Shown here piece after piece: positions 13,264 to 61,846 of a stretch of 64,000 nt of DNA. The translations under genes and the position numbers were made by a program. A model generated the notes under the pieces. That model worked only from the letters and a program-made list of their open reading frames with translations, did not search any database and had not been told where the DNA came from. This stretch comes from Coprothermobacter platensis DSM 11748 (GTDB lineage: Bacteria; Coprothermobacterota; Coprothermobacteria; Coprothermobacterales; Coprothermobacteraceae), in the NCBI RefSeq assembly GCF_000378005.1, contig NZ_KB899040.1:609645-673644 (forward strand). Direction: 5' to 3'. Position 1 is the first letter of the stretch, and the number at the start of each line of letters is the position of its first letter.

Positions 13264-13860
13264 GTGCCATTAGTACCTTATGTAGTAGAACAAACGCCTC
13301 GCGGCGAACGTGGTTACGATATATATTCGAGGTTACTTAGAGACAGAATTGTTTTCATCAACGGTGAAGTTGAGCCTGAGATGGCTGGATTAGTTATAGC
13401 ACAGCTGCTTTTTTTGGAAGCAGAAGATCCTAAAAGAGACATTTATGTGTACATAAATTCTCCTGGTGGTGTAGTAACAGATGGTTTAGCTATTTACGAT
13501 ACGATGCAATACATCCAACCAGATGTGGTTACAATGTGCATTGGCCAAGCTGCAAGTATGGCAGCCATTTTGTTGGCAGCGGGTGCAAAGGGGAAACGTT
13601 TTGCGCTTCCTAATTCTCGTATTTTGTTGCATCAACCTATGGGTGGTGTACAAGGTCAAGTCACCGATGTCGAAATACAAGCAAAAGAGTTGGTAAGAAT
13701 CAAACAACGTATAAATGAGATTTTGAGTCATCATACGGGTCAGCCTATTGACAGGATTTTAGAGGACACAGACCGCGATTTTATTCTTACTCCTGAAGAG
13801 GCTGTGCAATATGGTGTCATTGATCAAGTTATAACCAAGCGTCCTGGGAAAGAGGATTAG
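13264..13860 (+). CDS. clpP: ATP-dependent Clp protease proteolytic subunit
   Basis: ClpP serine protease, 198 aa, assembling into the tetradecameric barrel. The catalytic triad is visible as S98 (GQAASMAA), H123 (LLHQPMGG) and D172 (DTDRDF). The N-terminal segment is short, so little or no propeptide processing is expected. The start is GTG, preceded by GGAGGG. Partners encoded in this window are ClpX immediately downstream and the ClpC at 58.5 kb, which carries an IGF docking tripeptide; the Hsp100 at 40 kb does not. Confidence 0.97.
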
Positions 13861-13865
13861 CACTT

Positions 13866-15119
13866 ATGCCGAAAGAAATTAGATGTTCTTTTTGTGGTAG
13901 GACAGCGGATGAAGTTGATCAAATGCTTGCATGGCCTAATGGCCTATATATTTGCAATTACTGTGTAGAAGATGCTCACAAACTGCTGGACGCTAACAAA
14001 AAGAAATCTGCAGATTTTTCCGCTCTTGACGGGAAACTGCCCACACCATCGAAAATAAAGAGTTTCTTGGACCAATATGTGGTTGGTCAAGATCATGCTA
14101 AAAAGATTGTTTCGGTGGCTGTTTACAACCATTACAAACGTGTGAGAAGTAAACTAAGAGGCGATCGCATAGCTGCAGATTTAGGTAAAAGCAACATTCT
14201 TTTCATCGGTCCTACGGGTACAGGCAAGACATATGTAGCACAAAACTTGGCAAAACTGTTGAATGTTCCTTTTTCCATAAGTGATGCAACGAGCTTGACG
14301 GAGGCTGGTTATGTCGGTGAAGATGTAGAGAACATATTGCTTAGGTTGATCCAGGCTGCAGATTGGGATATTTCAAAAGCCCAGTATGGCATTGTGTACA
14401 TCGACGAAATAGACAAAATTGCGCGCAAGAGCGAAAATCCTTCTATAACGCGCGATGTATCTGGCGAAGGTGTTCAGCAAGCACTGCTAAAAATTGTTGA
14501 AGGGACACTCGCCAATGTTCCACCCCAGGGTGGTCGCAAACATCCCTACCAAGAGTTTGTCCAAATAGACACGTCTGATATCCTATTTTTGGTAGGTGGA
14601 GCTTTCGAGGGGTTAGATGACATTATTAGGCAACGTCTTGGACGCCGTACTGTGGGTTTTATGTCAGAACAAAGAGTTTTGGATAGTAATGCCATTCTTG
14701 ACGAAGTAATTCCTGAAGATTTACTCAAGTTTGGCATGATACCAGAATTTGTTGGGCGTTTTCCTGTTATTGCCACGTTCCATGAGTTGTCAAACGCTGA
14801 TTTGGTGGAGATTCTTACGAAGCCAAAGAACAGCTTGGTGAAGCAATATCAGGCACTTTTTGCCATGGATGGTGTCGAGCTGGAATTTACTGATAAAGCA
14901 GTTGAAGCGGTGGCACAAGAAGCGCAAAAACGAGGCATGGGAGCTCGTGGCTTGCGCTCTATTATGGAAGAAACGCTTACCGATTTAATGTACGATATTC
15001 CTGAAAAACCGGAAATCAAGAAAGTGATAATAACGTCGAAATGCTTAAAAGGGGAAGAACCCATATTCCTAACAGAACTTGATCTAGCCGAAGGTAGGAG
15101 TGTTGCAAATTATGAGTGA
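13866..15119 (+). CDS. clpX: ATP-dependent Clp protease ATP-binding subunit ClpX
   Basis: AAA+ unfoldase that feeds ClpP, 417 aa. The N-terminal zinc finger uses C7, C10, C30 and C33. Walker A is GPTGTGKT (115-122), Walker B is VYIDEIDK, the pore loop is GYVGED, and sensor elements lie in the [14 protein letters not shown] region. The start ATG is five bases after clpP, and the 3' end overlaps lon by 8 bp. Full length and conserved throughout. Confidence 0.97.
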
Positions 15120-39810: not shown

Positions 39811-39969
39811 ATGAAATATGTATGCCAAGTATGCGGTTTCATCTATGATCCTGAAGAAGGAGATCCAGACAACGGTATAGCTGCTGGTACACCATTCGAG
39901 CAACTCCCAGATAACTGGGTGTGCCCTGTATGTGGTGCATCTAAGGACATGTTTGCCCCAGCAGAGTAA
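39811..39969 (+). CDS. Rubredoxin
   Basis: 52-residue iron protein that transfers single electrons in anaerobes, often in oxygen or superoxide detoxification. Four Fe ligands are visible as CQVCG near residue 5 and CPVCGA near residue 38, with the typical YDPEEGDP and [14 protein letters not shown] between. It is preceded by AAAGGAGGT and flanked by its own -10 and terminator, so it appears monocistronic. No superoxide reductase, rubrerythrin or flavodiiron gene is adjacent. Identity is secure despite its size. Confidence 0.97.
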
Positions 39970-40050: not shown

Positions 40051-40073
40051 GTTGTCATAAAAAACATGACAAC
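40051..40073 (+). promoter_or_regulatory. Perfect inverted repeat, probable heat-shock operator
   Basis: GTTGTCAT-N7-ATGACAAC is a perfect 8 bp inverted repeat in the leader of the Clp ATPase gene, between its -10 and Shine-Dalgarno. It is not CIRCE and not a CtsR direct repeat. The arm and seven-base spacer geometry resembles the HspR (HAIR) operator layout, but the bases differ. Confidence 0.6.
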
Positions 40074-40093: not shown

Positions 40094-42565
40094 ATGTTTG
40101 ATGACTTGTTTCAGCAGTTTTTTGGAGACGATTTTTCGGATCTATTTCCAGAGTTTTTCGAGAGAAGAAAAAGAGACCTCACAGATTATCTGTCTTCATC
40201 TGCTATGAACGCGCTTCAAGGAGCTGCTAACTTAGCAGGTGAAGCTGGACATAATGAATTGATGCCTGAGCACTTGGCCTATGCTTTACTTGAGGACGAA
40301 ACGTTGCGGTCGGTTTTACAAAACCACGGCGTGAATGTCGACAAAATATTGCATGAACTGGAAACAACATTCAGCCCGAAAGGAACTCCAGTGAGCGAAG
40401 TTAGTATTGCACCGGAGTTGAAGTCCGTACTTGAAAGGGCTGTCAACATGTCAAGAAATAGTTTCTCTGAAAGTGTAACACCAGAAGAACTTCTCCTTGC
40501 CATTATCGAAGATGGTGGAACAGCCTCTCAAATTATGCAGAGGAATAATCTAAAATCAAGCAATTTAATAGATATCATCAATGAAGAAATTAGGAATAAG
40601 CCAATTGGTAGAGTAGGGCAAAAAACAACAGAAGGAAAAAGTAATACCAAATTACAGGAGTATGGTCGAGACCTCACCGATCTTGCGCGTCAGGGAAAAC
40701 TTGACCCCATAGTAGGAAGAGATAATGAAATACAACGTGTACTGGAGATCCTGTCAAGGAGAACAAAGAACAACCCTGTACTCATAGGAGACCCTGGAGT
40801 CGGGAAAACGGCCATTGTTGAAGGAATAGCTGAACGAATAGCTTCAGATGATGTGCCTGATGCCCTAAAAGGAAAGCACGTTGTGGAATTGGATATAGGC
40901 TCACTGGTTGCTGGTACAAAATATCGTGGTGAATTCGAAGAGCGCATGCAGGAAATCCTTGACGAGATAATGAGTAAGAAAGATGAACTAATACTATTCA
41001 TAGATGAACTCCATACCATTGTTGGAGCAGGAGGAGCAGAAGGAGCAGTAGACGCTTCAAATATGTTGAAACCAGCTTTAGCTCGTGGCGATTTACACGT
41101 CATAGGTGCTACTACTATTGACGATTACAGAAAATACATTGAAAAGGACCCAGCATTGGAAAGAAGGTTTCAGCCTGTTTACGTACCAGAGCCTACACTT
41201 GAAGATACCATCGCCATATTGAAAGTGTTGAAGGATAAACTGGAGGCACATCACAAGGTTAAGATTTCAGACAGTGCCATAAAGGCTGCCGTGTATTTAT
41301 CTGATAGGTACATCGCAGATAGACATCTACCTGATAAGGCAATAGACCTATTGGATGAAGCGTGCGCCAAAGTTCGTCTGAGTAGATCTAGTGTACCAAA
41401 GAACATTAAGGATATCGATGAGGAAATTAACAAGCTTCAAAAAGAGTTAAGGTCTGCTGTGGACAAAAATGAATTCGAAAGGGCAGCAGAGCTTCGAGAT
41501 AGAATTGCTGAGTTAAAAGCGCATAAAGAAAAGGCGGAAACGTCTGCCTTTGGCAATCAAAGTGCAGAACTGACCGTAACTGATAAAGAAATTGCTCAAG
41601 TAGTTTCTGCTTGGACGGGTATTCCTGTTACAGAACTTGAAGAGAGCGAAAAGGAAAAGCTGGCTCGCTTGGAAGAAATTCTTCACGAAAGGGTAGTTGG
41701 CCAGGATGAAGCTATATCTGCTGTTTCACAAGCTATAAGGCGTGCCAGGACGGGTTTGAAAGATCCAAAAAGACCTATAGGGAGCTTCATATTCTTAGGC
41801 CCTACAGGTGTGGGTAAGACCGAGCTTGCAAAAACGCTTGCGGAAGTTCTATTTGGAGATGAGTCGGCACTTGTTCGTTTCGATATGTCTGAATACATGG
41901 AAAAACATACTGTCAGTAGGCTTATTGGTTCTCCTCCAGGATATGTTGGTTATGAAGAGGGTGGGCAACTAACAGAAGCAGTAAGACGTCGTCCTTACAG
42001 TGTGATCTTGTTCGATGAAATAGAAAAAGCACATCCTGATATACACAATTTGTTGCTTCAAGTATTGGATGACGGTAGATTAACGGACGCAAAAGGTCAT
42101 GTAGTAGATTTTAAGAACACAATAATCATAATGACTAGCAATCTCGGAAGTCAGATTCTAATGGATGCCGCCGATGGGAAAATAGCAGAAGAAGAAGCTC
42201 AAAAGAGGGTAATGGATCTCTTGAAAACCCACTTTAGGCCTGAATTCCTCAACAGAGTAGATGATATTGTGTTCTTTAAACCTTTGACCAAGGACGAACT
42301 CAAAGACATAACAAGGCTCCAACTAAACAATCTCGCAGAAAGGCTCCAAGAGCAACATGTGAAACTTGTACTGACAGATAAAGCGATAGAACATATAGCC
42401 GAGCTTGGGTATGACCCTGAACTTGGAGCACGACCACTCAAACGGGTTATACAAAAAGAAATAGAAAACAGAATTGCTGAGAAGATGGTGCGCGGCGAAA
42501 TCAAGCCAGGGAATTCTGTTGAAATTGATTTTGATGGAACACAGTTCGAACTAAAAAGCGCGTAA
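40094..42565 (+). CDS. Clp/Hsp100 AAA+ ATPase, ClpC-sized but without ClpP-docking tripeptide
   Basis: Two-NBD Hsp100 chaperone, 823 aa. An unusual Phe/Asp-rich head (MFDDLFQQFFGDDFSDLF) precedes the Clp_N double repeat (to about residue 150). NBD1 has GDPGVGKTA and LFIDELHT. The short middle segment contains a UVR-like coiled coil (NEFERAAELRDRIAELK) rather than the long ClpB M-domain. NBD2 has [26 protein letters not shown] and LFDEIEKAHPD. The loop after TSNLG, where ClpA/ClpC/ClpX place an [ILV]-G-[FL] tripeptide to bind ClpP, lacks one here. The C-terminus (GYDPELGARPLKR, RGEIKPG) is ClpB-like. It may act as a disaggregase without ClpP. GGAGGTG precedes the ATG. Confidence 0.9.
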   Translation: MFDDLFQQFFGDDFSDLFPEFFERRKRDLTDYLSSSAMNALQGAANLAGEAGHNELMPEHLAYALLEDETLRSVLQNHGVNVDKILHELETTFSPKGTPVSEVSIAPELKSVLERAVNMSRNSFSESVTPEELLLAIIEDGGTASQIMQRNNLKSSNLIDIINEEIRNKPIGRVGQKTTEGKSNTKLQEYGRDLTDLARQGKLDPIVGRDNEIQRVLEILSRRTKNNPVLIGDPGVGKTAIVEGIAERIASDDVPDALKGKHVVELDIGSLVAGTKYRGEFEERMQEILDEIMSKKDELILFIDELHTIVGAGGAEGAVDASNMLKPALARGDLHVIGATTIDDYRKYIEKDPALERRFQPVYVPEPTLEDTIAILKVLKDKLEAHHKVKISDSAIKAAVYLSDRYIADRHLPDKAIDLLDEACAKVRLSRSSVPKNIKDIDEEINKLQKELRSAVDKNEFERAAELRDRIAELKAHKEKAETSAFGNQSAELTVTDKEIAQVVSAWTGIPVTELEESEKEKLARLEEILHERVVGQDEAISAVSQAIRRARTGLKDPKRPIGSFIFLGPTGVGKTELAKTLAEVLFGDESALVRFDMSEYMEKHTVSRLIGSPPGYVGYEEGGQLTEAVRRRPYSVILFDEIEKAHPDIHNLLLQVLDDGRLTDAKGHVVDFKNTIIIMTSNLGSQILMDAADGKIAEEEAQKRVMDLLKTHFRPEFLNRVDDIVFFKPLTKDELKDITRLQLNNLAERLQEQHVKLVLTDKAIEHIAELGYDPELGARPLKRVIQKEIENRIAEKMVRGEIKPGNSVEIDFDGTQFELKSA

Positions 42566-53778: not shown

Positions 53779-55161
53779 CTACTCCTTTATCCATCGAGTT
53801 CCATTCTTTGTATCTTCAATAGTAATGCCATGCTTGCTCAATAAATTTCTTACAGAATCAGCTTCAAGGAACTTCTTTTCTTTCCTTAGTTCATTCCGTA
53901 AATCGACCAGATCTTGTACTAATGAATCGTCAAACTGGCTTTCTGGCAATAAGCGTAGTCCGAAGATATCTTCCATAGAGAATGCAAGGAAATCCCTTAT
54001 GAGAGAAGCTTCTTTTCTATTTACTTGATCAGTACTCAGCTGAGACATTACCCTGTGAACACATGATAATGCTCCTGCAGTGTTCAAATCTTCTTCCAAA
54101 TAACTAGTAAAGTCCTTCTTTACTTCCTCCAATACATTTACAACAAAATCGCGAATCTCCCCTTCTGTTGTTATCCAGTTCAAGCGTTCCTTGTAAGCCC
54201 TTATATTCTTTACCGTTGCATCGGCTTGAGCATATGATTCTGCAGAGAACGTAACAGCATCTCTGTAGTACGTAGATAAAAGTAAATACCTTAAAACGTC
54301 AGGATCATATTGTTCCATTATTTCTTGTGCGCCTATGAAGTTGCCTAAGCTTTTATGCATTTCTTCTTGCCCTATTCTGAGCATACCCGTGTGCATCCAG
54401 ATTTTAGCAAATGGTTTCTCACCCATGAGAGCTTCCGATTGGGCCCTTTCGTTTTCATGGTGGGGAAAAATTAAATCGGCTCCACCTCCGTGAAAGTCCA
54501 ACGGATAAGTACCAAATTTTATCGATATCACGCTACATTCAATGTGCCAACCAGGTCGTCCATCACCCCACGGACTATCCCACCATATATTATCGCTAGG
54601 TTTTCTCGCTTTCCAAATAGCAAAGTCCCTGGAGTCCTGTTTATATGGAGACGGTTCTATGCGAGCCTCCATCTGAGAGATGTCTTCCGCATTTCTTCCA
54701 GAGAGTATGCCATAGTCTGGGAATTTTCCCACAGAAAAATAGACTCCATCTGGTGTTACATAAGCATAATCACGTTGAATTAGCTTCTCGACGGCATCTA
54801 TAATATCAGGCATTACTTGTGATACACGGCCATATATATATAGCGGTTTGACGTTAAGATAGTCCATTAACCTGTAATACGCCCTTTCATATGTCTCTGC
54901 TAAAGCTAAAGGGTGCACAGAAAGCGCTTTTGAACGTTCGATAATTTTATCGTCTACATCCGTGAAGTTAGAAATAAAAACAGGTTTGTAGCCCATACTT
55001 TGAAGAAATCTTTGAAATAAATCGAAAACTAACGCTGTTCTAACATGCCCAAGATGAGGTTCATCATAAGGCGTAATGCCACATACATAACCGACAACAG
55101 AATCACCAGGTTTCTTATCTAGTTCAATAAGCCTACGACTTTCCGTATCATAAAGTCTCAT
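53779..55161 (-). CDS. cysS: Cysteinyl-tRNA synthetase
   Basis: Class I CysRS, 460 aa. The HIGH motif is PHLGH in a GYVCGITPYDEPHLGHVRT context with the first zinc Cys. GWHIECS and FPHHENERAQSEAL supply the other zinc ligands. The KMSKS loop reads EMHKSLGN, keeping only the last Lys-Ser. No T-box leader is present because the gene lies inside an operon, overlapping ispDF by four bases. Confidence 0.95.
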   Translation of the reverse strand: MRLYDTESRRLIELDKKPGDSVVGYVCGITPYDEPHLGHVRTALVFDLFQRFLQSMGYKPVFISNFTDVDDKIIERSKALSVHPLALAETYERAYYRLMDYLNVKPLYIYGRVSQVMPDIIDAVEKLIQRDYAYVTPDGVYFSVGKFPDYGILSGRNAEDISQMEARIEPSPYKQDSRDFAIWKARKPSDNIWWDSPWGDGRPGWHIECSVISIKFGTYPLDFHGGGADLIFPHHENERAQSEALMGEKPFAKIWMHTGMLRIGQEEMHKSLGNFIGAQEIMEQYDPDVLRYLLLSTYYRDAVTFSAESYAQADATVKNIRAYKERLNWITTEGEIRDFVVNVLEEVKKDFTSYLEEDLNTAGALSCVHRVMSQLSTDQVNRKEASLIRDFLAFSMEDIFGLRLLPESQFDDSLVQDLVDLRNELRKEKKFLEADSVRNLLSKHGITIEDTKNGTRWIKE

Positions 55162-56246
55162 AATTTCACCTCAAACGCATTTGTAAATGACACGCACACT
55201 ATACCATCTAAAGGTTTTCCAAACACATTTTCACTATGCGTTACAGATACGTGCACCTTCGCATTTAGAATGGAACTCAAATGATTTTCCATCAGCTTAA
55301 GCCATGGACCTAAACGAGGTTGATCTGCCAATAGAAGTACAGAAACATCGGAGACAGTGATATTCATTTCTTTTGCCATTAGCAAAACAGCATTCAATAT
55401 GTCTGTGGAGGGCTTGTTCTCCCATGTTTCATTATTTGGGAATAGAGTCCCTAAATCGCCTTTGCCAATCATCGACAGAATGCTTTCTGCCACAGCATGG
55501 ATCACCACATCACCATCGGTCCACGATTTCAAACCAACTACAGAATCAGTAATCTGCACGCCCCCTAATATTAGTGGGCAGGACGGATCAAAACGATGGA
55601 AATCCCAACCTATACCTGATGTTTTTTCAAACATCAAATCCCCAATAAAAATATCTCCAGGGAATGTGACTTTTAAATTCTTACGTTCTCCTTCTATGGT
55701 GTGTACTTTGAAGCCTAAATCCTGTGCCACACTAGCCTCATCGACATCTTCATTCGACGACTCCATAACAATTGACAGTGCTTCGTAAGTGAACCCTTGC
55801 GGAGTTTGAACACGAAGAATTCCATTTCTCGATAAAGGAACACTTTCCTCTCCGGCCATTTTTCTTAGAGCGTCTTCTATATCAATTACTGGCACAACAA
55901 CGGGATAAATGTCTAACCATGCTAGCACACGCTCGAACAGATCGTCACTAGCTAACGGACGAGCTGCATCATGGATAACAACTTTATCTACATCTGATAG
56001 CAACGCAAAACCATTCTTCACTGATTCTTTTCTCGTAAGGCCCGGAGGTGCTACTAAAAGTGACTTATCCTTAGGCTGCTCGTCAGAAACTATAACAATT
56101 TGGGCGAAAAGCTGCTTTAAGTAGGGAAGCCTCAATTCCCAATAATCCAATAACGAATAACCATGGAACACTGGAAGCGATGCTTTTCCTCTTCCTCCAG
56201 AAAAACGCTGTCCTTTGCCTCCCGCGACAAGAATCAGACCGTTCAT
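55158..56246 (-). CDS. ispDF: Bifunctional IspD-IspF (MEP cytidylyltransferase / MECDP synthase)
   Basis: Fused non-mevalonate pathway enzyme, 362 aa. IspD part (residues 1 to about 205): LVAGGKGQRF, LTRKESVKNG and VVIHDAARPL. IspF part (about 210 to the end): GIGWDFHRFD with two zinc ligands, TDGDVVIHA with the zinc His, GDLGTLFPN, and a C-terminal THSENVFG. In Bacillus these are separate adjacent genes at the same place. The fusion skips IspE, the enzyme acting between the two. It overlaps cysS and follows the PIN-TRAM gene after five bases. Confidence 0.95.
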   Translation of the reverse strand: MNGLILVAGGKGQRFSGGRGKASLPVFHGYSLLDYWELRLPYLKQLFAQIVIVSDEQPKDKSLLVAPPGLTRKESVKNGFALLSDVDKVVIHDAARPLASDDLFERVLAWLDIYPVVVPVIDIEDALRKMAGEESVPLSRNGILRVQTPQGFTYEALSIVMESSNEDVDEASVAQDLGFKVHTIEGERKNLKVTFPGDIFIGDLMFEKTSGIGWDFHRFDPSCPLILGGVQITDSVVGLKSWTDGDVVIHAVAESILSMIGKGDLGTLFPNNETWENKPSTDILNAVLLMAKEMNITVSDVSVLLLADQPRLGPWLKLMENHLSSILNAKVHVSVTHSENVFGKPLDGIVCVSFTNAFEVKL

Positions 56247-56251
56247 AGTTC

Positions 56252-57256
56252 TCAGTCAGCAACCTTTGTAAATATTATTTTCCCAGTATCGCTAACATGT
56301 ACATTGGTTACCACGACTCTAACTGTGCTGCCAATAAGGTCAGCAGCATCCTCTACGACGACCATGGTACCATCGTCGAGGAATCCCACACCTTGAGCTC
56401 TGATTTTTCCCTCCTTGACCACCTTTATTGTTAATTCATCTCCCACATTAATATTTGGCCGAAGTGCAACAAACACTTCGCTAAAGTTGATAACATCAGC
56501 ATTGTGTAAACGAGCAATTTTTGCCAAATTTGAATCAAGGGTGACAATTGTTGCTTTCTTATCACGAGCATATTGGATTAAAGCATCATCTACACCTTTT
56601 ACGCCTCTAGGAGTATATTCTACTAATGCCAAACGTTTACTGCTCTCCTTCATTTGTTCGAGAACTTTTAATGCCCTTTGTCCTTTGTCTCGTTTTACAG
56701 GATCTGTGCTATCAGCTAATTGCATAATTTCCTTCACAACGAAGGATGGCACCACTACTCTGCCTTTAAAAAGATCGAGATTGATCAATTCCAGGATACG
56801 TCCATCAACCAAAATAGAAGTATCCAAAACAAATTCTGGTTCCATTCCAATTATGTTTTCTCTTTTTTCCCTCGCTCGGTAAATAACAATGGCTCCCCAT
56901 ACAGCGATCACATCAAGAATAAGTAGAATGCCGACACCGAGCGCATATTCCCCAGCATAAATAAGTGGGATGAGTATAGGAACACCCACAACATTAGCTA
57001 ATATGATGCCTATACCGATGTATTGAAACTGCTGAAACGGAAATGTAGCTGCTCGCTGAAATGCTTGCTCAAACCACTTATCAAAAACTGAGCGGCACGA
57101 ATAACCGACAGCCAAAGATACGATCGCTGTCGTTCCTAAAATTATTAGGTTGTGGCTATTGAGGAACCGCACAGGAAAAAGACGCTCCACAGCATAGAGC
57201 GCAATAAAAACAACAATGGAATAAAACATTCCTCTAAAAAAACGTAAAATACGCAC
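56252..57256 (-). CDS. PIN-TRAM domain membrane protein (YacL family)
   Basis: About 334 aa. Four hydrophobic helices occupy roughly residues 8-130, then a PIN nuclease-like domain (EFVLDTSILVDGRI, ending VVTLDSNLAKIARLHNADVINFSE) with acidic metal-binding residues, and a C-terminal TRAM domain (VGDELTIKVVKEGKIRAQGVGFLDDGTMVVVEDA). I choose GTG at 57256, six bases after GAGGTG; a GTG nine bases earlier overlaps that site. It lies between radA and ispDF as in Firmicutes. Biological role unclear; RNA cleavage at the membrane is inferred from the domains. Confidence 0.92.
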   Translation of the reverse strand: MRILRFFRGMFYSIVVFIALYAVERLFPVRFLNSHNLIILGTTAIVSLAVGYSCRSVFDKWFEQAFQRAATFPFQQFQYIGIGIILANVVGVPILIPLIYAGEYALGVGILLILDVIAVWGAIVIYRAREKRENIIGMEPEFVLDTSILVDGRILELINLDLFKGRVVVPSFVVKEIMQLADSTDPVKRDKGQRALKVLEQMKESSKRLALVEYTPRGVKGVDDALIQYARDKKATIVTLDSNLAKIARLHNADVINFSEVFVALRPNINVGDELTIKVVKEGKIRAQGVGFLDDGTMVVVEDAADLIGSTVRVVVTNVHVSDTGKIIFTKVAD

Positions 57257-57276
57257 AAAAATCACCTCACAAAAGG

Positions 57277-58482
57277 TTAAAAGAGTTCTTTTATTAATTC
57301 TACAACAGTGGAGGCTTTAGTTCTAATAAGGGAAGCGCTCTGAGATATCTTTGGGTTTTGCTGAGGAATCAGTATGCCACCTGTGAGAAGAATTTCTCCG
57401 TAAACGAGAACATTCTGAGAAACAGCGCGCTCTTTTAAACTCGAATATATCGCAGCCACGATGGCCGCGTCTATACCGTAATCATTCACAAAAAAATCTG
57501 TTGTGATGTCCACGTAGACATCATACTTGTACATAGGTATTTTTAAGTATTTTTGCATTACCGCGGTAAGTAACAAAAGTCTACTGTTAGGATAGCGAGA
57601 ACTTATCCTTCTGGGCATCTGGCCATAAGATTCTGTAACCAAGGCATGAACTTGAACAAACTCAAAATGCGTTCCTGTGTTTACAGCACTTACTACTAAA
57701 CCTGGCTCCGATACTGACTGTTGGATACTGATTGTTGAGGGATTCAAACCATGCTCTGACATTTCCAGCAGTACCTGATCTGTGCTTGGACCGAAACGGT
57801 TCTTTACCAATTTTAAAAGCCGCTTATTACCCGTACGCTCTCCTTCAAGATATAAAACTACATCTACCATATGTTCAATCGTTCGTGGGCCAGCAATTAT
57901 ACCCTCTTTTGTGACATGGGCCACAATTATCACGCAGCAGTTAACTTCTTTAGAGAACCTAACAAGTTTTGATGCTACATCTTTTACCGTAACAGGCGAA
58001 CCAGGTGCACCATCACTTCCATAGGTTATGGTCTGAAGGCTATCAACACAAATAATATCGTAACCACCTAAGTCAACATCATTTAGGTCTCCTGCTGAAA
58101 CGATGTTTGGCAAATGAATCCCAAGCCTCTCAGCTCGTTTTGTGACTTGGTTTTCAGTTTCTTCGGAAGTAACATAAAGAACTTTACCATCAACAGACCC
58201 CAGCAATTGTAATGCCAATGTGGATTTTCCTATACCAGGTTCCCCGCCAAGGAGCATGACTGAACCGCTTTGAAATCCCCCACCTAAAACTGCATTCAAC
58301 TCATCTAAGAAAGTTGGAATAACACGAACAGGCATAGGTTGATAAACATTCCTTGAGGTTTCAATTTCCGAGGTTTTACGCTCAATAAAAGTACCAAAGT
58401 GACCGCACTGCGGGCACTTCCCCAATTTTACAGAGGAAACATACCCGCAGTCGGTGCATTCATATTGTACCTTGTTGCTCAA
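57277..58482 (-). CDS. radA: DNA repair protein RadA (Sms)
   Basis: 401 aa, shorter than the usual 450. An N-terminal zinc finger (CTDC and CPQC) is followed by a RecA-like ATPase with Walker A GGEPGIGKST and the RadA motif KNRFG. A Lon-like C-terminal domain is present but abbreviated after GEILLTGGI. RadA promotes branch migration in recombination. The start is TTG, overlapping the clpC stop by four bases. disA, usually next in Firmicutes, is missing. Confidence 0.94.
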   Translation of the reverse strand: MSNKVQYECTDCGYVSSVKLGKCPQCGHFGTFIERKTSEIETSRNVYQPMPVRVIPTFLDELNAVLGGGFQSGSVMLLGGEPGIGKSTLALQLLGSVDGKVLYVTSEETENQVTKRAERLGIHLPNIVSAGDLNDVDLGGYDIICVDSLQTITYGSDGAPGSPVTVKDVASKLVRFSKEVNCCVIIVAHVTKEGIIAGPRTIEHMVDVVLYLEGERTGNKRLLKLVKNRFGPSTDQVLLEMSEHGLNPSTISIQQSVSEPGLVVSAVNTGTHFEFVQVHALVTESYGQMPRRISSRYPNSRLLLLTAVMQKYLKIPMYKYDVYVDITTDFFVNDYGIDAAIVAAIYSSLKERAVSQNVLVYGEILLTGGILIPQQNPKISQSASLIRTKASTVVELIKELF

Positions 58483-60896
58483 ACTCTGCTTACTTCTCCG
58501 TTGGGTACAGGATTGATTATCGTTGAGCCATCTTCATAGTCCATCATAAGTGTTCCTGTTACATTTTCCCGCTGAAGCATGTATTCAGCCAATGGGTCTT
58601 TAACTAACCGTTGAATGGCCCGTCTTAAAGGCCGTGCTCCAAAGCGAGGCTCATAACCTTCTTTTATAATCTGCTCCAGCAATCTATCAGAAATTTTTAC
58701 GGCGATATTCTGCGAACGAATTTGTTTGTTGAGTTCGTCGACCATGATACCCACAATCTGGCGGAGATCATCATTGGTGAGATGATGGAACACTACAACC
58801 TCGTCTATTCTATTTAAAAACTCTGGCTTGAAAAACTTCTTAACTGCGTCCATTACTAAGTTTTCCATATTTTCAAACTTTTCTTCGTTCTTCAAAAATC
58901 CGATAGTTGCCCCAGCACTTATATCTCTACTACCAAGGTTCGATGTCATTATTATGATAGTGTTCCTGAAATCAACAACTCGTCCCTGCCCATCTGTAAG
59001 GCGTCCGTCCTCGAATATCTGAAGCAAAATGTCAAAAACATCAGGATGAGCTTTTTCTATTTCATCAAGTAACACAATGCTATGTGGTTTCCTACGCACA
59101 GCTTCAGTAAGCTGTCCGCCCTCTTCGTAACCAACGTATCCTGGAGGAGCACCCACTAATCGGCTAACATTGAATTTTTCCATATACTCCGACATATCAA
59201 TGCGAACCAAAGCTTCTTCTTCACCGAACATGAATTCTGCTAACGCACGAGCGAGCTCTGTTTTGCCTACACCTGTAGGGCCAAGAAACAAAAACACTCC
59301 TATGGGGCGACGATCATCTTGCAAACCAGTACGACTTCTGCGTATGGCCTTCGCAACAGCAGATACGGCCTCATTTTGCCCCACAATGCGCTTATGTAGA
59401 TAATCTTCAATCTCAAGAAGTTTCTTCTTGTCATCTAAACGCAGTTTTGCCACAGGTATGCCTGTCCACGATGAGATCGTGTAAGCCACATCGTCAAAGG
59501 AAACAGTGGGTTGATTCTCATCCATGCTACGTTCATACAACCAGATCTCTTCCATTCTTGAATATTCTTCCTTAAGCGATTTCTCTTTATCACGTAAAGA
59601 AGCTGCTTCTTCAAACTGCTGAGAATCTATTGCCAGTTGTTTCTGCAAACGAACTTTTTCAATCTCATCTAAGAGAGCTCGAAGGTTGCTAGGCAATACT
59701 TCATTAGCTAGACGAACCTTAGCAGCGGTTTCATCAAGAGCATCAATAGCCTTATCAGGCAAGAAACGCTCCTTTACATACTTTTTTGTTAGCACAACGG
59801 CAGCATCAATAGCATCATCAGCTATTTTTACATTATGGAATTTCTCATAAATTGGTCTTAACCCTTCGAGAATCTTATGAGTTTCTTCCTCGTTGGTTTC
59901 TTCCACTTGTACTGGCTGGAATCTGCGCTCAAAAGCAGGATCGCGTTCTATGTACTTTCTATAGTCATCATAAGTTGTAGCACCGATTACTTTGATTTCG
60001 CCACGAGCCAATGATGGTTTTAATATTGAAGCCGCATCTATCGCTCCTTCAGCAGCACCAGCACCAATAACGGTGTGAATTTCATCAATGAACAGAATTA
60101 CCTGCCCATTAGTTCTTTTTACCTCATCCAGGATCTTTTTCATCCGTTCTTCAAATTCTCCTCTATACTTTGTGCCAGCAACAATAGAGGAAATATCCAG
60201 TTGAACCACACGTTTCTTTTTAAGCGAATAAGGAACTTTACCTGAAGCTATTCGCTCTGCCAAACCTTCAACTATTGCCGTTTTACCTACTCCAGGCTCT
60301 CCGAGTAAAATTGGGTTGTTCTTGATTCTTCGGCTGAGTATTTCAATAACTCTGTTTAGTTCATTTTCTCTACCAATGACAGGATCAAGTTTACCTTTCT
60401 CCGCCAAAGATACCAAGTCCTTTGAAAACTTATCCAGAACTGGTGTCTTTGTTTTTCCTTTTTCTTCGGGTTCCTGTTCTCCCATTTCCATTACTTTTCT
60501 GCGAACGTCGTCATAAAAAACGCCATTTTCATTCAGAATTGAGCTGACCCTTGACGGTTCTTTAAGAATAGCCATGAGCAAGTGCTCTGTTCCTACATAC
60601 GAATGGGCAAGTTTCCTTGCTTCCTCGCTGGCAGTGTCAAGTAATCTTCTTGCCTCGCTGGAAAGTTCTGGATACTGCAAACTAGATGCCATGGGCATAG
60701 GAATATCTTCTATGGCACTTCTTATAGCGTCGGGATCCGCGCCTATCGAATCGATAATAGAATAAGCACGGGTATCCTCATTTAGTAAAGCAAGTACTAT
60801 ATGTTCACGCCCTACGAAGCTACTGTTTAAACGCCTTGCTTCTTCTTGAGCATCTTTTAACGCTTTTCTTGCTTCTTCAGAAAATCTAATAAACAA
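58479..60896 (-). CDS. clpC: ATP-dependent Clp protease ATP-binding subunit ClpC
   Basis: Two-NBD unfoldase, 805 aa. Clp_N repeats (HIVLALLNED and HLLMAILKEPS) occupy residues 1-145. NBD1 has GEPGVGKTA and LFIDEIHT, the short UVR middle region contains QQFEEAASLRDKEKSLKEEY, and NBD2 has [10 protein letters not shown] and LLDEIEKAHPD. After TSNLG the loop contains ATIGF, the IGF tripeptide used to dock on ClpP. The start is TTG after AAGGAGGG. The gene lies between trxB and radA; the regulators ctsR, mcsA and mcsB are absent. Confidence 0.95.
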   Translation of the reverse strand: MFIRFSEEARKALKDAQEEARRLNSSFVGREHIVLALLNEDTRAYSIIDSIGADPDAIRSAIEDIPMPMASSLQYPELSSEARRLLDTASEEARKLAHSYVGTEHLLMAILKEPSRVSSILNENGVFYDDVRRKVMEMGEQEPEEKGKTKTPVLDKFSKDLVSLAEKGKLDPVIGRENELNRVIEILSRRIKNNPILLGEPGVGKTAIVEGLAERIASGKVPYSLKKKRVVQLDISSIVAGTKYRGEFEERMKKILDEVKRTNGQVILFIDEIHTVIGAGAAEGAIDAASILKPSLARGEIKVIGATTYDDYRKYIERDPAFERRFQPVQVEETNEEETHKILEGLRPIYEKFHNVKIADDAIDAAVVLTKKYVKERFLPDKAIDALDETAAKVRLANEVLPSNLRALLDEIEKVRLQKQLAIDSQQFEEAASLRDKEKSLKEEYSRMEEIWLYERSMDENQPTVSFDDVAYTISSWTGIPVAKLRLDDKKKLLEIEDYLHKRIVGQNEAVSAVAKAIRRSRTGLQDDRRPIGVFLFLGPTGVGKTELARALAEFMFGEEEALVRIDMSEYMEKFNVSRLVGAPPGYVGYEEGGQLTEAVRRKPHSIVLLDEIEKAHPDVFDILLQIFEDGRLTDGQGRVVDFRNTIIIMTSNLGSRDISAGATIGFLKNEEKFENMENLVMDAVKKFFKPEFLNRIDEVVVFHHLTNDDLRQIVGIMVDELNKQIRSQNIAVKISDRLLEQIIKEGYEPRFGARPLRRAIQRLVKDPLAEYMLQRENVTGTLMMDYEDGSTIINPVPNGEVSRV

Positions 60897-60910: not shown

Positions 60911-61846
60911 TTATGTACCTAACTCATTTATGTATTCGAAGACGCTTTGTGCAGCAATTGCTCCATCTGCTGCTGCTGTCACTATTTGTCCTAATGCACC
61001 ATGTCTTATATCACCTGCTGCAAATAATCCTTTTTTAGACGTCTTCATTTCTTCGTCAGTTTTTATATACCCATTTTCGTCCAAATCTACCAAATCCTTA
61101 ACCATTTGAGTATTAGGTACATGTCCTACTTGCACAAAAACACCATCAACTGGCAATGTTGTTTCCTTTCCTGATTCTAAGTTTTTAAGCACTATGCCTT
61201 CTACTTTTTTTTCACCCAGCACTTCAGAGACAACACTATTCAGTATGAGCTGGATTTTGCCGTTTTGAGAAACCCTATCAACAAGAACTTTTTCCGCTCT
61301 AAAAGCATTTCTTCTATGGATTAGGTAAACTTTGCTCGCTATATTGGCTAAGTATTCAGCACTAGAGAAAGCAGAACTTCCGCCTCCAATAACAGCAACC
61401 GTTCTATTTCTAAAAAAGGCACCATCACACGTCGCACAATATGAAACGCCTCTGCCTATCAATTGCGATTCTCCAGGTACATTTAAATGCTTATAGTTTA
61501 CTCCCATGGACAAAATGATTGCCTTTGCGTAGAGCATGTCAAGTCCGTGAAGGGTAAACATACCATTCCTACCGTTTTCTTCAATGCTCTCGACTCGCTC
61601 ATTGATAAGAACAGCGCCGACGTTCTCAACATGGCGTCTCAAACGTTCTCCCAATTCAAGACCTTCAACCCCATCTGGGAAACCTGGATAATTCTCAATT
61701 AATGAGGCAGAACTCACTATACCTCCGAACACACCATCATAAACGACTCCTACTCTTAACCCATTGCGAGCCGCATATATAGATGCCGTTGCGCCAGCAG
61801 GTCCTCCCCCTATTATAAGCACATCAAATTCATTTGTCGTTGTCAT
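60911..61846 (-). CDS. trxB: Thioredoxin reductase
   Basis: FAD/NAD(P)H-dependent reductase of thioredoxin, 311 aa. The FAD site is GGGPAGATAS (13-22), the redox pair C137/C140 is in CATCDG, the second dinucleotide loop is GGGSSAFSSAEYL, and HRRNAFRA contains the residues that bind NADPH phosphate in the family. The C-terminal FAD block AAGDIRHG is intact. GAGGTGG precedes the ATG. It overlaps the DUF501 gene by 17 bp and precedes clpC by 14 bp. Confidence 0.95.
   Translation of the reverse strand: MTTTNEFDVLIIGGGPAGATASIYAARNGLRVGVVYDGVFGGIVSSASLIENYPGFPDGVEGLELGERLRRHVENVGAVLINERVESIEENGRNGMFTLHGLDMLYAKAIILSMGVNYKHLNVPGESQLIGRGVSYCATCDGAFFRNRTVAVIGGGSSAFSSAEYLANIASKVYLIHRRNAFRAEKVLVDRVSQNGKIQLILNSVVSEVLGEKKVEGIVLKNLESGKETTLPVDGVFVQVGHVPNTQMVKDLVDLDENGYIKTDEEMKTSKKGLFAAGDIRHGALGQIVTAAADGAIAAQSVFEYINELGT

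Follow-up and report, generated by a model that had tools for sequence, protein, structure and literature searches.

Coprothermobacter platensis DSM 11748 encodes an Hsp100 protein with two intact ATPase rings, a short M-domain and no IGF tripeptide for docking to ClpP. We read it as a ClpP-independent, ClpG/ClpIb-like Hsp100 and most likely as a disaggregase that replaces the missing ClpB, with a probability of roughly two in three. Disaggregation and independence of both DnaK and ClpP are predicted here from sequence. The reading is supported because the protein has no IGF, a short M-domain with a UVR motif and an intact motor, and because the genome has no ClpB. Further support comes from the distribution of ClpB among families, the trees, a small deletion in the N2 domain, matches to the N-terminal head, and functional analogues (PMC11006417, PMC8024975, PMC10641755, PMC10149685). 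It is weakened because AU tests allow a grouping with the ClpC side, with ClpB or with the genome's own ClpC, and because the zinc core with which ClpG binds aggregates is missing and one order-level homologue (L014) is headless. We found no paper on Hsp100 proteins in Coprothermobacter. The window is a stretch of 64,000 nucleotides on contig NZ_KB899040.1; its features are collected in Table 1.

Table 1. Features in the window, numbered from its first base
Feature	Position	Strand	Basis
Hsp100 gene, IGF-less, short M-domain	40094..42565	+	ORF, Pfam, NCBIfam
Acidic-aromatic head, residues 1-27, MFDDLFQQFFGDDFSDLFPEFFERRKR	40094..40174	+	conservation, head matches, AlphaFold2 model
Clp_N (N2-type) domain, approximately residues 30-168	40181..40597	+	PF02861; indel table
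AAA1 ring	40652..41398	+	motifs all intact
AAA1 Walker A; pore loop GTKYRGEFE; Walker B	40787-40810; 40913-40939; 40991-41017	+	
One-wing (two-helix) short M-domain with UVR motif, residues 436-486	41399..41551	+	Pfam, model, alignment
AAA2 ring and D2-small domain	41798..42526	+	Pfam, motif alignment
AAA2 Walker A; pore loop GYVGY; Walker B; sensor 2	41798-41821; 41927-41953; 42002-42028; 42425-42445	+	
Short post-SNLG loop without ClpP-docking [ILV]G[FL], residues 686-713	42149..42232	+	loop alignment
Rubredoxin gene, immediate upstream neighbour of the Hsp100 gene	39811-39969		kept in G001 (congener) and G004 (family member)
ClpC paralogue with IGF loop, in clpC-radA-PIN/TRAM-ispDF cluster	58479..60896	-	loop sequence
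clpP (13264-13860) and clpX (13866-15119)	13264..15119	+	PF00574 1.1e-84; AAA_2 match; ORF coordinates

Motor, loop and M-domain

The open reading frame starts with ATG and encodes an intact two-ring protein of 823 amino acids, in which Pfam finds Clp_N, AAA, AAA_lid_9, UVR, AAA_2 and ClpB_D2-small. The Walker A and B motifs and the pore tyrosines (KYRG, GYVG) are complete in both rings, and sensor 2 is intact. With both rings and both pore loops intact, ATP-driven threading would be expected. Between SNLG and FRPEFLNR a search for [ILV]G[FL] found none, and the loop reads SQILMDAADGKIAEEEAQKRVMDLLKTH. The tripeptide is also absent from the loop of the genus and family orthologues (L010-L012; identity to the query protein 77% and 76% within the genus and 70% in the family) and of the order-level homologues L014 and L015. 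Because the tripeptide is gone, normal docking to ClpP should be impossible, and threaded chains would be released for refolding instead of entering ClpP. The ClpC paralogue of the same genome has SRDISAGATIGFLKNEEKFENMENLVMDAVKKF after SNLG, which includes IGF.

The M region spans 81 alignment columns; ClpB has 140-159, and most rows with a short M-domain of the ClpC type have 81-84. A Pfam UVR match covers residues 442-475, and the AlphaFold2 model predicts helices at 436-457 and 461-486. Such a one-wing M-domain would form neither the repressive belt of ClpB nor its DnaK-binding wing. These data confirm the first-pass annotation, which had given the coordinates of the gene exactly and had described two Hsp100 paralogues, one at 58.5 kb with IGF and one without [ILV]-G-[FL], and in the latter a short UVR coil in place of the ClpB M-domain. 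The annotation had also called the C-terminus ClpB-like. PF10431 is indeed present, but the ClpC paralogue has it too, so the C-terminus does not discriminate; what resembles ClpB is the whole AAA2 half together with the short loop. The chain ends with ...FDGTQFELKSA, the end of the D2-small region, and carries no C-terminal extension. Among solved structures, its best sequence match is S. aureus ClpC.

Place among the Hsp100 families

A short M-domain without IGF is already found in ClpG/ClpK, ClpL and ClpIb (PMC8024975, PMC11006417, PMC10149685). The earlier proposal of a disaggregase that uses neither ClpP nor a standard M-domain names the class that appears to fit best, but the combination is not exceptional. 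The protein shares with ClpG/ClpK the missing IGF/IGL, the one-wing M-domain, the Clp_N (N2) domain with a 2-residue deletion, and an acidic-aromatic segment ahead of N2, but it has neither their CxxC...C/H zinc core nor their C-terminal extension of 20-40 residues. The NCBIfam models for ClpG and ClpK (NF033607/NF033606) give 881 and 871 bits, with a cut-off of 1900. A Cys cluster corresponding to this N1 zinc core was absent from residues 1-30 and from the frame upstream, and a core hidden by a wrong start or a frameshift was rejected, as none was seen in the intergenic DNA or the in-frame upstream codons of three genomes, and the CxxC gene upstream is a separate one, for rubredoxin. Aggregate binding by ClpG requires the zinc core (1-46), which is also sufficient for it, and removal of the core leaves ClpG nearly inactive (PMC10641755). 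Because this aggregate binder is absent, the protein is not a ClpG.

ClpIb, a subtype of the Actinomycetota ClpI without LGF, coexists with ClpB and has a role that is not known (PMC10149685). The likeness lies in a ClpC-length M-domain, the lack of LGF, the short loop and extra N-terminal material before Clp_N, and a ClpIb-type protein from Tsukamurella even has the head motif and the N2 deletion of the query protein. The differences are that ClpIb belongs to another phylum, that ClpI coexists with ClpB whereas the query genome has none, and that grouping with two ClpI-like rows was not obtained with strong support (72/32). ClpL, a stand-alone disaggregase of Listeria, lactobacilli and streptococci, binds aggregates through flexible aromatic patches (PMC11006417). 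It likewise has no IGF, a short M-domain and a flexible, aromatic-rich N-terminal segment, but it is N/Q-rich, lacks Clp_N, which the query protein has, and branches with ClpE. ClpB shares the missing IGF, the short loop and an AAA2 to which its model is the nearest, and differs in having the second M-domain wing; its model is also the best NCBIfam match for the whole protein (TIGR03346, 1069 bits, under the curated cut-off of 1232). With ClpC the protein shares length, M-domain type and, for the genome's own ClpC, 51% identity, but it has no IGF and falls outside the ClpC clade once the N-domain is included.

Many IGF-less, short-M relatives were found in a survey of 386 genomes. Trees were built on AAA1 and AAA2 with the loop and M columns removed. 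In a quick tree of 93 rows the query protein groups with ClpK, ClpB and other IGF-less proteins (SH-aLRT 84), and in a careful tree of 47 rows it is sister to ClpG/ClpK (98/95). When ClpI-like rows are added, it takes no settled position within a clade of 31 rows (95/95) that comprises ClpB, ClpG, ClpI-like and other IGF-less proteins, and with the N-domain added it is outside both the ClpC clade (99/99) and ClpB (99/99). The branch with 72/32 has the query protein, ClpG and the two ClpI-like rows, which were identified by their features, on one side. The N2 deletion is common to the query group, the ClpG group and these two proteins; it is missing in most other short-M rows and present in ClpA and a few others. 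AU tests gave p 0.07 for placement with ClpB, 0.08 and 0.30 for the ClpC side, and 0.16 for the genome's own ClpC. Our best estimate, which is not proven, is therefore a position beside ClpG and ClpIb. The protein is probably not merely a ClpC minus its hook: several trees favour the IGF-less group, although the AU tests do not formally exclude the ClpC side. A recent duplication of the genome's own ClpC is favoured by no tree, and its AU value does not formally reject it.

A single loss of IGF was rejected. The loss has recurred, because L013 and L045 fall within ClpC, whereas ClpL branches with ClpE. L013 and L150, like L172 and L254, are tandem Hsp100 pairs (in genomes G053 and G328) in which an IGF-less copy lies beside an IGF ClpC. 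This copy has a zinc finger and an aromatic head, the genomes have no ClpB, and as it branches with ClpC, the ClpP hook was lost independently. L045 (4001-6307) is an Eggerthellaceae ClpC without IGF whose nearest relatives are IGF ClpCs of the same family, another separate loss. Two further proteins are worth noting. L020 (G057:C14:671-3076) is a short-M Hsp100 with LGF, yet on the ClpB side of the tree. L154 (G005:C17), an 875-aa Hsp100 with MGF, a 68-column M region and a very long branch, occurs in order-level relatives in place of a normal ClpC.

Absence of ClpB and gene neighbourhood

ClpB working with DnaK counts as the standard bacterial disaggregase. No full-length ClpB was found in the query genome (1.42 Mb, 91% complete), which has two Hsp100s, ClpX and some weak AAA matches, nor in a 99%-complete congener (G001), a family member (G004) or two relatives in the order (G005, G006). 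A true ClpB elsewhere in the genome, which the first-pass annotation had named as part of what would speak against its proposal, was accordingly not found. A search of the query genome for a split ClpB also found none. In the other lineage of the phylum (G007, G008) canonical ClpB is present and there is no Hsp100 of the query type. For a wider sample we took 79 genomes with a close homologue (E <= 1e-240) and classified the loop of each match. Full-length ClpB occurs in 2/14 families with an IGF-less protein versus 27/40 with IGF proteins only (Fisher p = 0.0012), counts in which related genomes are not independent and families are of unequal size. One of the two ClpB-positive families is a doubtful case with a TGF loop of ClpC length; moving it to the IGF side gives 1/13 versus 28/41 (p = 0.0002). 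Overall, 276/386 of the genomes surveyed have ClpB. Because ClpB is absent from 12/14 of the families that have such a protein, the data suggest that the IGF-less protein fills its place; the association is support for replacement and not proof.

The present protein is a further example of a general kind of which ClpG, ClpL and ClpI have been described before; what may interest the specialist is that in this lineage a core chromosomal gene of the kind seems to take the place of ClpB. If so, a chromosomal, family-wide, IGF-less short-M Hsp100 without ClpB would make stand-alone disaggregation an alternative core solution, especially for small anaerobe or thermophile-like genomes. We can only tentatively extend this to a scheme in which such proteins would be the only general disaggregase of the lineage and of several other ClpB-less families. 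In the lineage the protein would then be independent of DnaK, its head without a zinc core would serve as latch and aggregate sensor, and it would be a core housekeeping machine, not a mobile heat-resistance add-on.

The protein might instead solubilise aggregates as ClpB does, with DnaK recruiting it through another surface. DnaK, DnaJ and GrpE are encoded in the genome (as is HSP20), which makes a DnaK-coupled mode possible, and the missing zinc core and the high score of AAA2 against the ClpB model agree with it. We nevertheless consider it unlikely, as the second M-domain wing, the DnaK dock of ClpB, is absent, and the characterised short-M, IGF-less proteins ClpG and ClpL act without DnaK (PMC11006417, PMC8024975); judging from these two, a one-wing M-domain would not need DnaK for switching on.

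The surroundings of the gene bear on a narrower role. No chaperone or proteostasis operon was found around it, and in three genomes its upstream neighbour is a rubredoxin gene with its own stop codon, followed by a terminator. The protein could be an unfoldase that remodels particular complexes and is no general disaggregase, as has been suggested for the Actinomycetota ClpIb, which coexists with ClpB (PMC10149685). The lack of ClpB in 12/14 families with such a protein makes this rather improbable. It is very improbable that the protein is a ClpC derivative still feeding ClpP through a non-canonical contact: ClpP is encoded, S. aureus ClpC is the best solved homologue and AU does not reject the ClpC side, but all orthologues have the short ClpB-like loop, ClpP already has partners in ClpX and a distinct IGF ClpC, and the best trees place the protein outside ClpC.

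A perfect 7-base inverted repeat, TTGTCAT-N7-ATGACAA (40052-40072), lies after a -10-like box and before the ribosome site of the gene; it occurred 0 times in 100 shuffles of the window. At the equivalent position the family member G004 carries TTGGCT-N6-AGCCAA. The repeat is possibly an operator or a 5' mRNA hairpin. Elsewhere in the window, the order clpC-radA-PIN/TRAM-ispDF (55158-60896) is similar to that of Firmicutes clpC operons, and a thioredoxin-reductase-like gene (60911-61846) lies on the upstream side of clpC.

The N-terminal head

Ahead of Clp_N the protein has a short segment in which 8/27 residues are aromatic; in the remaining protein no 25-residue stretch exceeds 16%. The head is kept in the genus and family with dS saturated and dN low, L014 being entirely without it, and AlphaFold2 models it as short helices with low confidence (pLDDT ~44). 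The Tsukamurella protein has nearly the same motif, VFDDIFQRFFGN. Its N-terminus reads MSELDGVFDDIFQRFFGN. The protein lacks LGF, has the N2 deletion as well as a short M-domain, and agrees with the description of ClpIb (PMC10149685, a paper that does not name this protein). Its head matches that of the congener, MFDDIFQQFFGN, at 10/12 positions, and composition-preserving shuffles of the query head equalled the score of the real match in 0/5000 cases. Among plasmid sequences, the best tblastn matches by E-value to residues 1-177 are ClpG-like proteins. In one ClpG-like group from the survey of genomes (L174-L178, L180, L181, L183) a CxxC...C zinc core is followed by 'SPLESLF.GDF.KDFFGEEF' and then Clp_N, a layout found also in Klebsiella ClpK (L147) and a Methylorubrum protein (L149). 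The aligner set the query head against this segment, and the query protein starts exactly there. Shuffles of the same kind gave p 0.0005-0.07 for most ClpG-type rows and 0.3 for one, and the head resembles the ClpG N1 segment 47-71. A chance low-complexity stretch is ruled out by conservation, dN/dS and the matches across families. The first-pass annotation had the sequence of the head exactly right and called it unusual; it is aromatic-rich and conserved, but by its sequence it is not unique, as ClpIb-type proteins share it.

With the M-domain reduced to one wing, control of the proposed stand-alone disaggregase is more likely located in the head and the N2 domain. At rest the head may cap the N-domain groove or AAA1, to be displaced by an aggregate. 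In ClpG the helical segment 47-71 is dispensable: ClpG lacking it shows the highest ATPase and disaggregates better (PMC10641755). For the N-terminal extensions of ClpI, a cap over the substrate groove and a reach to AAA1 have been predicted (PMC10149685). Like those of ClpL, the aromatic residues of the head could also make contact with the aggregate. By analogy, the head would be a latch released by the aggregate, a direct aggregate contact, or both, with the parallels to ClpG and ClpI speaking for the latch. If query-type proteins do replace ClpB, one head motif with either role would also link them with ClpIb and ClpG. On the Tsukamurella plasmid (L257:1-3157) the ClpIb-type gene adjoins a family 1 encapsulin shell gene.
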